Of a stretch of 15,037 bases of DNA, positions 6,571 through 9,216 are shown one piece after another (the stretch's first letter is position 1; the number at the start of each line of letters is the position of its first letter). A program made the position numbers and the translations under genes. Origin of the DNA: Candidatus Bathyarchaeota archaeon (GTDB taxonomy: Archaea > Thermoproteota > Bathyarchaeia > TCS64); the NCBI GenBank assembly GCA_016867505.1, contig VGJH01000010.1, forward strand, positions 1 through 15,037, given 5' to 3'. The notes beneath the pieces are model-generated. The model worked only from the letters and a program-made list of their open reading frames with translations, did not search any database and was not told the origin of the DNA.

Positions 6571-8151
6571 TTAAGTCAAGATTTTAGCCATATAGGGACC
6601 TTTTTTTTGGTAGCCAAGTCTTTTATAATACTGTTTTGTACCAAGAGCACTCATTACAATCATCTCTTTTGCACCATATTTCTCTTTAGCAGTTTTTTCA
6701 GCTTCAATTAATAGAGCTTCTCCCCAACCTTTATGTTGCCAAGCATCATCATTTTTTGTTCCAACCGGAACCATTGCACCATAAATATGTAGCTCTCTAA
6801 TTAATCCTGTATCATTTGATATTTCAAGTCTTTTTAGATTAGTTGAAGGCATTCTTAATCTAATGAACCCAATTAAAGAATCTGTAGTAGGATCTTCAAC
6901 ACTCATAAATTCCTCTATTCCCTCAGATGCATCGTAATTAGTATGTAGAATCCTAAGATTTTCTACATTAACTTTCTCATTCTTATGACCCACTTCACGA
7001 CAACGTATACACCTACATCGTCCTCCATGGCTTTCAAGTCGGTTTTCAGCCAATTGTCTCAGATTACTTTTATCTACACCAGCATCAATACGAGGGAGGG
7101 GAATATCCCTTTGTACACGCATAATTCTTACCCAAGGTGGAACAATTTTTTTAATTGAAGCTATTAATTCAACAGCTTGTTCAGTGGTTAAAGGTGAATA
7201 ATTTCCGTTAATCCACCAATCATACAATTTTGTTCCCTTAACAACAAGAGTTGGATAAATTTTTAACATGTCAGGCTTAAAACTTGGATCTTCAAATAAT
7301 TTCTGAAAACCTTTTAAATCTTTTTCAGGGTTTGAGCCAGGCAACCCAGGCATCATGTGATAACAAATTTTTAAAGCAGAATCCTTCAAAATTTGGGTAG
7401 CATCAACCACGTTTTTAACTGTGTGACCGCGATCAACCAATTCATAAATTTCATCATAAATATTCTGAACACCTAATTCAACGCGTGTTACGCCTAAATT
7501 AAGAAGGTTATCTACGTCTTTTTTATTAACACAGTCGGGCCTAGTTTCAACTGTTATTCCAACATTTCTTTTATGAGAATACTCTGCATGTAATTTTGCC
7601 TCAGAAAAAGATGTTGAGTCTATTCCGGTAATCGCATCCAGACATCCTTTAACAAAACATTCCTGATATTCAAGAGGTGAAGCAGGGAAAGTTCCACCCA
7701 TTAAAATTAAATCAATTTTATCAACATTATGTCCTATCATTTCAAGTTGTTTAACTCTACTTTTAACCTGTTTGAAGGGGTCAAAGTCGTTTTGTACTCC
7801 TCGCATAGCTGCTGGTTCAAATCCAGTATAACTTTGGGGTGTTGGGGTTTTAGCATCGGGGCCACCAGGACAATAGGCACATCTCCCATGAGGACAGGCA
7901 GAAGGCTTAGTCATAACAGCAACTACACTTACACCACTTAAGCTGCGAATCTTTTTCCTTATCAAAATAGGAATTAATTTTTCAGCCTCGTCTTCATTAA
8001 GTAATTCAATTATTTCGGAGTTACGTGGAATTTGCTTTAACTGATATAATTTTGAATATTCAATTTTAATTCTATCAACATCTTTCCGAGTAGGATTAGG
8101 TTCTTGAAGAAGTTTATTAATAATATCTCTCAGGGCCAAGCCTGAGTTCAC
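6571..8151 (-). CDS. elp3: Elp3: tRNA uridine-34 acetyltransferase, radical SAM plus GNAT
   Basis: Elp3 makes the carboxymethyl-type modification on wobble uridine of tRNA. The radical SAM domain carries CPHGRCAYC (C86, C91, C94; CX4CX2C), the motif that holds the iron-sulfur cluster, followed by SYTGFEPAAMRG and LILMGGTFPASP. The cysteine-rich zinc-type segment RCRCIRCREVGH is near 376-387. The C-terminal GNAT domain (about 390-526) holds the acetyl-CoA loop QHKGWGEALLIEAE and ends with YYKRLGYQKKGPYM. At 526 residues it has the usual archaeal length. The start is GTG 8151, 16 nt after the eS30 stop, with no clear ribosome site, so the start is less certain than the identity. Being adjacent to eS30 and upstream of gatDE places it in a translation block. 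Confidence 0.95.
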   Translation of the reverse strand: MNSGLALRDIINKLLQEPNPTRKDVDRIKIEYSKLYQLKQIPRNSEIIELLNEDEAEKLIPILIRKKIRSLSGVSVVAVMTKPSACPHGRCAYCPGGPDAKTPTPQSYTGFEPAAMRGVQNDFDPFKQVKSRVKQLEMIGHNVDKIDLILMGGTFPASPLEYQECFVKGCLDAITGIDSTSFSEAKLHAEYSHKRNVGITVETRPDCVNKKDVDNLLNLGVTRVELGVQNIYDEIYELVDRGHTVKNVVDATQILKDSALKICYHMMPGLPGSNPEKDLKGFQKLFEDPSFKPDMLKIYPTLVVKGTKLYDWWINGNYSPLTTEQAVELIASIKKIVPPWVRIMRVQRDIPLPRIDAGVDKSNLRQLAENRLESHGGRCRCIRCREVGHKNEKVNVENLRILHTNYDASEGIEEFMSVEDPTTDSLIGFIRLRMPSTNLKRLEISNDTGLIRELHIYGAMVPVGTKNDDAWQHKGWGEALLIEAEKTAKEKYGAKEMIVMSALGTKQYYKRLGYQKKGPYMAKILT

Positions 8152-8167
8152 TTTAAAAAATTATAGG

Positions 8168-8344
8168 TTAATACCTATCGTCTTGATTTCTAAAACGTGT
8201 CTCACGTGGAGCGTGTACGACCCTTTTTACGAAGTTTGTTCTATTTCTTTTCTTTGGATTTTTATTTGTATGAGGCATTGGCTCGATTTTTGGGGTCTGA
8301 GCTCTAACCTTTCCTGCCTTTGTTAGTGAACCATGTGTGGGAAT
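8168..8344 (-). CDS. Small ribosomal subunit protein eS30 (S30e), apparent ATT start
   Basis: A 58-residue basic protein, easily missed because no usual start codon exists. From ATT 8344 it reads (M)PTHGSLTKAGKVRAQTPKIE, the well-known N-terminus of eS30. The basic middle NKNPKKRNRTNFVKRVV and the tail RETRFRNQDDRY follow, ending in TAA at 8168. Upstream in frame the codons are ATT, GAT, GGT, GGC, TCG, CTT, CTT, CAT, AAG, GTC, AGT and then TAG, with no ATG, GTG or TTG. GGTGAT (8348-8353), a perfect match to the archaeal anti-Shine-Dalgarno, ends 3 nt before this ATT, and a TATA box sits at 8377-8384. The first internal ATG (residue 23) would delete the conserved N-terminus. eS30 binds near the decoding site of the 30S subunit. 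It lies 16 nt upstream of elp3. Confidence 0.9.
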   Translation of the reverse strand: MPTHGSLTKAGKVRAQTPKIEPMPHTNKNPKKRNRTNFVKRVVHAPRETRFRNQDDRY

Positions 8345-8376
8345 AATATCACCGCCCGAAAGAAGATGCTTGACAC

Positions 8377-8406: not shown

Positions 8407-9216
8407 TTAATGATCCACAGGAATTAATTTACCAGAAGGATCTAGCTTTAATTTAGCAAATTCATTTAAAACATTTCTCAGCATTTCTGAATTAAAAACA
8501 GGACCATCTCGACACACTCTATAAGGCCCAATTGCACAGCTTCCACATAATCCCACTGCACATTTACAATATCGTTCTAAGCTAGCTTGCACTGGAATAT
8601 TCTTTAACTCAGCACTCTGAAAAATTTTTGACATCATCAATTCTGGACCACAAACATATATAATATCAAACTTATGTTCCTGTAAAATTATATCAAAATA
8701 GTTAGAAGCATACCCTTTAAAACCGACCGAACCATCATCAGTTGATAAAAATAGATTATTTCCAAAAAGTTGTTGAAGTCTTTTAAGAAATAGTAATTGA
8801 TTTCCACTTCTTGCTCCCATTAAAAATGATGGTTTTAAACTCGCTTCAACCATTTTTTTACCAAGAGGAAACAATGATGCAACACCAGTTCCTCCGCCTA
8901 TTAAAAGAGCTCTTGAATTAAATATTGTATAGCCATTACCAAAAGGTCCACGTATACCTATTTTATCTCCAGATTTTAGCTGACTCAAAGCTTTGGTCGC
9001 ATCACCTACAACTCTAACAGATATAGAAACAGGATTATCTAAGGAAGATAGGCTCATCGGAATTTCATCTATTCCTGGAATCCAAACCATTAGATATTGT
9101 CCTGGTTTTGCATTCAATTCAGTATCAAGAATAATTGTTGAGATGTCGACTGTCTCTTTAATTACTTCCTTGATTTTTACTGCTCGATTGAATTCAGGAT
9201 TTATGTGCAAGCCCAA
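8407..9216 (-). CDS. pyrK: Dihydroorotate dehydrogenase B electron-transfer subunit
   Basis: PyrK passes electrons from PyrD to NAD+ through FAD and a 2Fe-2S cluster during pyrimidine synthesis. The 269 residues show a FAD-binding barrel (about 10-95, with the PMSLSSL segment at 53-59 and IRGPFGNGY at 88-96). A nucleotide-binding domain follows with LIGGGTGVASLFPL (105-118) and YVCGPELMM (187-195). The C-terminal 2Fe-2S site is C219, C224, C227 and C235 (CX4CX2CX7C), ending in RVCRDGPVF; an extra C217 lies next to it. ATG 9216 gives a 23-nt overlap with the end of pyrD, so translation is probably coupled. Both cofactor sites appear intact. Confidence 0.95.
   Translation of the reverse strand: MGLHINPEFNRAVKIKEVIKETVDISTIILDTELNAKPGQYLMVWIPGIDEIPMSLSSLDNPVSISVRVVGDATKALSQLKSGDKIGIRGPFGNGYTIFNSRALLIGGGTGVASLFPLGKKMVEASLKPSFLMGARSGNQLLFLKRLQQLFGNNLFLSTDDGSVGFKGYASNYFDIILQEHKFDIIYVCGPELMMSKIFQSAELKNIPVQASLERYCKCAVGLCGSCAIGPYRVCRDGPVFNSEMLRNVLNEFAKLKLDPSGKLIPVDH

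Follow-up and report, generated by a model that had tools for sequence, protein, structure and literature searches.

A probable AUU start codon in a Bathyarchaeia eS30 gene and recurrent eS30 starts other than ATG, GTG or TTG in the class

How is translation begun on a core ribosomal protein gene whose reading frame has neither ATG, GTG nor TTG where the protein normally starts? The eS30 gene of the window, i.e., the whole stretch of 15,037 nucleotides of Bathyarchaeia DNA analyzed here, raises this question. The original prediction, made from the letters of the window, was that a complete eS30 has its normal first residue on ATT and that automatic gene finders would miss the gene. The gene is indeed omitted from the list of open reading frames with ATG, GTG or TTG starts (NTG below) and at least 50 amino acids, and a core ribosomal gene of Bathyarchaeia can thus escape gene finding that is limited to these three codons. 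Among the listed titles and abstract openings of open PMC articles, no report of archaeal non-AUG eS30 starts was found.

The eS30 gene of the window and its start codon

The window gene matches PF04758 Ribosomal_S30 with 44.1 bits (E 2.3e-11, cut-off 27), and NF006817 (30S ribosomal protein S30e) with 71.4 bits, slightly below the curated cut-off of 75. Its protein carries the family N-terminus PTHGSLTKAGKVR; across 14 eS30 sequences the columns P T H G S L, K A G K V R and Q T P K are invariant. It is the single eS30 match in its genome, which is 82% complete in 350 contigs. The features needed below are as follows.

8344-8168, minus strand: eS30 coding sequence, 58 codons plus stop, start ATT, TAA at 8170-8168
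8344-8342, minus strand: probable ATT start codon, the second of two ATTs, at the conserved Met position of MPTHGSL; ATA in G001, ATG in G002-G005
8347-8345, minus strand: preceding in-frame ATT; AAT in G001
8353-8348, minus strand: Shine-Dalgarno (SD) site GGTGAT, ending 3 nt before the start ATT; identical in G001
8389-8379, minus strand: promoter motif AAAGGTTTATA (BRE + TATA), with AAAGG at 8389-8385 and TTTATA at 8384-8379
8380-8378, minus strand: in-frame upstream stop TAG, from sequence reading
8278-8276, minus strand: ATG of codon 23, the sole in-frame NTG of the gene; missing from G001
6571-8151, minus strand: Elp3-like radical SAM/acetyltransferase gene, 16 nt downstream of eS30
8407-9216, minus strand: PyrK-like gene, upstream of the eS30 promoter

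The minus-strand frame reads TAG AGT GTC AAG CAT CTT CTT TCG GGC GGT GAT ATT ATT CCC ACA CAT and onwards, and is translated as the start residue followed by PTHGSLTKAGKVRAQTPKIE and so on up to the TAA. Reading back from the ATT to the TAG we found no ATG, GTG or TTG, and the SD site and the TATA box stand where the original prediction had placed them, so that its description of the locus holds in all these respects.

Comparison with close relatives, which could have overturned the AUU reading, left it in place. Among the best 80 of 436 named-record matches, the nearest is JAFGHP010000014.1 (Candidatus Bathyarchaeota) with 87% identity; the genome G001 contains this very stretch. G001 has ATA at the codon aligned to the window ATT, and its whole eS30 frame is devoid of ATG, GTG and TTG. 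Of the two ATTs in the window the second is the likelier start, because the first is AAT in G001. Between window and G001, codons 2-22, i.e., those before the first in-frame ATG, differ by 11 synonymous and no amino-acid changes, and the rest of the gene by 12 synonymous and seven non-synonymous ones. Promoter spacing was compared in 19 loci whose eS30 is preceded by AAAGGTTTATA or one of two close variants: the end of the motif lies 34 nt before the start in the window and in G001, and 30-35 nt before it in the 17 ATG loci. The ATT therefore occupies the position of the ATG in the relatives, and four of six genomes of the same genus carry ATG at the window's eS30 locus. Judged from this sequence comparison, AUU is very probably the real start codon of the window eS30.

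Other accounts of the ATT have little room beside this reading. An error of sequencing or assembly might be suspected in a metagenome-type assembly of 350 contigs; however, G001, which was assembled separately, has a non-NTG start too, with another codon, and 26 of 156 eS30 loci are non-NTG, and we consider an error highly improbable. That the AUG is supplied by a short intron or by some other upstream start has some appeal from the probable bulge-helix-bulge (BHB) intron inside eS30 of three distant relatives, but in the window the TATA box is as far from the start as in ATG relatives, which leaves no room for an intron; the SD site directly adjoins the ATT, and the frame is free of NTG up to the stop. 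Most intron-free genes of the genus g31, too, have a TATA-like element and an SD site before the codon, with 75-95 nt from PyrK to the start, and this account is scarcely credible. Equally hard to believe is translation from the internal ATG of codon 23, or decay of the gene. This ATG is the sole in-frame NTG that the window gene offers, but the 11 changes in codons 2-22 altered no residue, most of the invariant N-terminal columns are located there, and the G001 frame has no NTG whatsoever.

The neighborhood of the gene gives two further observations. In 13 of the 15 first-type loci tested in the family f1, an Elp3 motif follows the His codon of eS30 at a distance of 435-473 nt, and it is possible that eS30 and the Elp3-like gene (window 6571-8344) are a decoding-related pair. 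In eukaryotes, eS30 is made as a fusion with FUBI; a fusion of this type is ruled out in the window because the TAG stop sits in frame immediately upstream.

Census of eS30 start codons and control genes

We searched 256 genomes of the class, found an eS30 match in 209 and read the gene in 104, 28 of which were hand-picked, many from clades already known for non-NTG starts. Named records were scanned with the pattern [MI]PTHGSLTK, a possible bias in that [MI] was used because the start column of our alignment A1 contained Ile, and with a second, unbiased pattern; from the best 80 of 436 matches this contributed one further non-NTG locus (L117, ACG). Altogether 153 distinct eS30 loci were read: ATG in 109, TTG in 13, GTG in six, ATG one codon off in one (L025), and no in-frame NTG in 23 (ATA eight, ACG seven, ATC four, ATT three, TTA one). 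Three split eS30 genes that the pattern missed begin with ACG, ACG and ATA and have no in-frame NTG, which brings the loci without an NTG start to 26 of 156. The locus L040, whose sole NTG is inside the SD site and whose start reads ATA GTA, belongs to the 153 but not to these 26. When the 28 hand-picked genomes are left out, nine of 80 genes in 76 genomes are non-NTG. Of the 27 eS30 loci fetched from outside the class, 26 were readable, and all 26 have NTG.

Two clades have no NTG start in any genome with a match. In the genus g31 (family f19) non-NTG starts are found in 16 of 16 genes, i.e., in all 15 genomes with a match, as ACG (eight), ATA (four), ATC (two), ATT (one) and TTA (one); ATG is found in the two further genera of f19 that were read (G077, G078). 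The group f12 is non-NTG in three of three (ATC, ATC, ATT), and no reversal to NTG was seen in g31 or f12 despite the rapid turnover of the codon. G095 has ATA and its tree neighbor G055 ATG. Three genomes (G005, G014, G023) have ATA at a second type of eS30 locus with no Elp3 motif nearby, and G005 and G023 additionally carry a first-type copy with ATG. In a tree built from 16 ribosomal gene clusters of 36 genomes (2305 columns), the nodes of window plus G001, f12, and G055 plus G095 have a support of 1.000, and g31 has 0.998. By count, the sequences point to at least five origins of non-NTG eS30 starts (window pair, f12, g31, G095 and the second-type copies), and L117, from a named Bathyarchaeota record, may be a sixth. 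The second-type copies are the weakest part of this count because metagenome bins can be contaminated.

A second eS30 gene in a different neighborhood was observed in four genomes: G005 (L012, ATA), G008 (L035, TTG), G018 (L040, ATA-GTA) and G023 (L039, ATA). Such copies may be either true paralogues or bin contamination.

Control genes were read for comparison. For rpoN, 47 of 50 loci were readable; 39 have NTG, three have their ATG one residue further on and were removed by hand, three are ambiguous and were set aside, and two (L194, L237) have no NTG near the conserved N-terminus. For eL37, read by eye, NTG was found in 42 of 42 readable loci (43 in total). The ribosomal-operon stretches of 36 genomes gave 665 genes in 30 clusters, of which 18 were flagged; seven with NTG at or near the start were dropped by hand and 11 lack NTG upon inspection. 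Named via Pfam (uL29 from one representative), these are uL29 with an apparent CTG start in five g31 genomes (L340, L341, L416, L417, L419), uS3 (L345, ACG), uL5 and uL18 (L346, CTG and probably ATC), uL24 (L412, ACG), uL6 (L407, start codon ambiguous) and an endonuclease-III-like gene. Overall, ACG, CTG, ATC and ATA are among the replacing codons, and uL24 (G073) and uL6 (G061) are non-NTG in genomes whose eS30 begins with ACG. Seven of 223 control genes are without NTG in the 13 g31 genomes for which operon stretches were read; in the window's own genome none of 19 was flagged. Please note that the operon contrast is a within-genome one and not a random sample, because the genomes were chosen partly with knowledge of their eS30 state. 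Two uS9-like genes (L179, L200) also lack NTG by our reading; they are candidates only, from a screen that mixed antisense frames, and stand outside the counts. For aIF1 (SUI1), the start was readable from the motif in eight of 30 loci, with in-frame NTG in eight of eight. The eL43 loci, which gave no clean reading, are left out of the counts.

With kinship ignored, Fisher tests of eS30 (9/80) give p 0.21 against rpoN (2/47), 0.026 against rpoN plus eL37 (2/89), and 8e-5 against all controls (13/754). An exact SD match of at least 5 nt precedes 88% of 24 non-NTG eS30 loci (L040 included, split genes not) versus 51% of 109 ATG loci, and the median SD duplex energy is -8.8 versus -7.1 kcal/mol (Mann-Whitney p 0.011, loci non-independent). 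The 19 GTG/TTG loci have such a match in 89%, like the non-NTG loci.

A candidate weak start and permissive initiation

Briefly, the reading that we lean towards, from sequence comparison and with reservation, is that of a weak start. The TATA promoter would drive transcription of eS30, and the TATA spacing suggests that the leader is about 10 nt long. Initiation would proceed through SD pairing (GGUGAU) at AUU, which the initiator Met-tRNA would decode with imperfect pairing while the SD pairing holds the complex, and the Met would then be expected to be removed, exposing Pro-Thr-His. The weak AUU would keep eS30 output low and make it dependent on the strictness with which the small subunit, aIF1 and aIF1A act against near-cognate codons. 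Such a weak start seems to be retained in several Bathyarchaeia lineages, with the codon drifting among AUA, AUC, AUU and ACG. That selection maintains the weakness has, by our reading of the sequences, slightly better than an even chance. The recurrence of non-NTG eS30 starts, the clades without NTG, their separate placements in the tree, the rarity of such starts in g31 controls (7/223) and among the controls of the window's genome (0/19), the firm SD sites of non-NTG loci and the location of the eS30 N-terminus at the A site speak for it, and the absence of NTG throughout a clade combined with a drifting codon is what one expects if weakness alone is selected. Against it are the ATG in four of six same-genus genomes, the non-NTG starts of rpoN, operon and uS9-like genes, the p of 0.21 against rpoN alone, and the equally firm SD sites of GTG/TTG loci.

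The competing explanation is permissive initiation, i.e., with a good SD site the start codon would be near-neutral in Bathyarchaeia, and AUG would drift to AUH, ACG or CUG whatever the gene. The drift would then be most visible in eS30, since conservation of its N-terminus reaches residue 2 and few NTG occur in its frame. Non-NTG starts in rpoN (L194, L237), uL29, uS3, uL5, uL18, uL24 and uL6, two of these (uL24 in G073 and uL6 in G061) in genomes with an ACG eS30, fit this explanation, as do the firm SD sites at both non-NTG and GTG/TTG eS30 and the comparison with rpoN alone. The class is indeed somewhat permissive, since control operon genes also, though rarely (11/665), lack NTG. However, eL37 has NTG at all 42 readable loci, 216 of 223 g31 controls do not lack NTG versus none of 16 eS30 genes with NTG, and neither g31 nor f12 returned to NTG even though the codon turns over quickly. 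We therefore give permissive initiation alone a real but lesser chance.

The weak-start reading has known parallels. The E. coli infC gene, encoding IF3, starts with ATT and is under IF3 feedback, and in Streptomyces infC starts with ATC and sigR with GTC, as described in PMC5472188. The near-cognate start of infC weakens initiation. Like infC, the window eS30 belongs to the translation apparatus and has a near-cognate start, with no canonical alternative in its frame; infC encodes a bacterial factor with proven feedback, and the window gene an archaeal ribosomal protein whose start codon is not fixed and whose feedback is hypothetical. As for conservation of the infC type, non-NTG is kept in the window and G001, in f12 (3/3) and in g31 (15/15 genomes), and ATG is found in four of six same-genus genomes. 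In eukaryotes, eIF1 is autoregulated through its weak start. The output of the stringency-setting BZW1/BZW2 is likewise reported to be tied to a poor start. These eukaryotic genes use a poor context around AUG together with scanning, whereas the Bathyarchaeia eS30 would use a non-AUG codon together with an SD site.

It is tempting to go one step further and suppose that eS30 both senses and sets start-codon stringency, i.e., subunits poor in eS30 would accept AUU, AUA or ACG and thereby yield more eS30, and replete subunits would reject them; we consider this plausible but less likely than not. In Saccharolobus solfataricus, the N-terminus of eS30, a protein of the same family, contacts h44 near the A site through Pro2, and in eukaryotes eIF1A touches eS30 residues 2-8 (PMC11698992); a role of eS30 in archaeal initiation was unstudied before the structures of that work, by its own account. 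The mammalian eS30 N-terminus may stabilize cognate codon-anticodon pairs (PMC5119991), and aIF1 acts against non-AUG complexes (PMC6237735). Such contacts near the A site make a link between the eS30 level and the acceptance of near-cognate codons reasonable. A true fidelity feedback on the eS30 start, doubtful as it is, would give archaea a ribosomal-protein equivalent of the loop between IF3 and infC, one that arose at least five times. Near-cognate starts recurring at one archaeal gene for a decoding-site protein would be natural evidence for stringency-based control beyond bacteria and eukaryotes, and a handle on the function of eS30 in archaeal initiation.

An interrupted eS30 gene in relatives

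In three g31 genomes (G062, G067 and G074; loci L323, L324 and L325), 31 nt interrupt eS30 after ...SLT-AA, between codons 9 and 10. The minimum-energy folds of L323 and L324 show a bulge of 3 nt (AAU) and a helix of 4 bp (GACC:GGUC), with UG unpaired on the opposite side; if the second bulge is taken as UGA and each bulge is cut behind its second base, TKAGKV is restored in all three. The fold of L325 is less clean, and the energies are unexceptional (z -1.15, -1.71 and 0.31). By this modeling the insertion is probably an archaeal BHB intron in a ribosomal protein gene; according to PMC2738675, splicing had by 2009 been confirmed among archaeal protein genes only for cbf5. The putative intron of these relatives leaves the window eS30 unaffected. 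G062, G067, G074 and one G066 copy have an insertion of about 1.1 kb just upstream of eS30 (L311, L323, L324 and L325), and on it, between PyrK and eS30, a gene of the LAGLIDADG type, tested with Pfam for L324 only.
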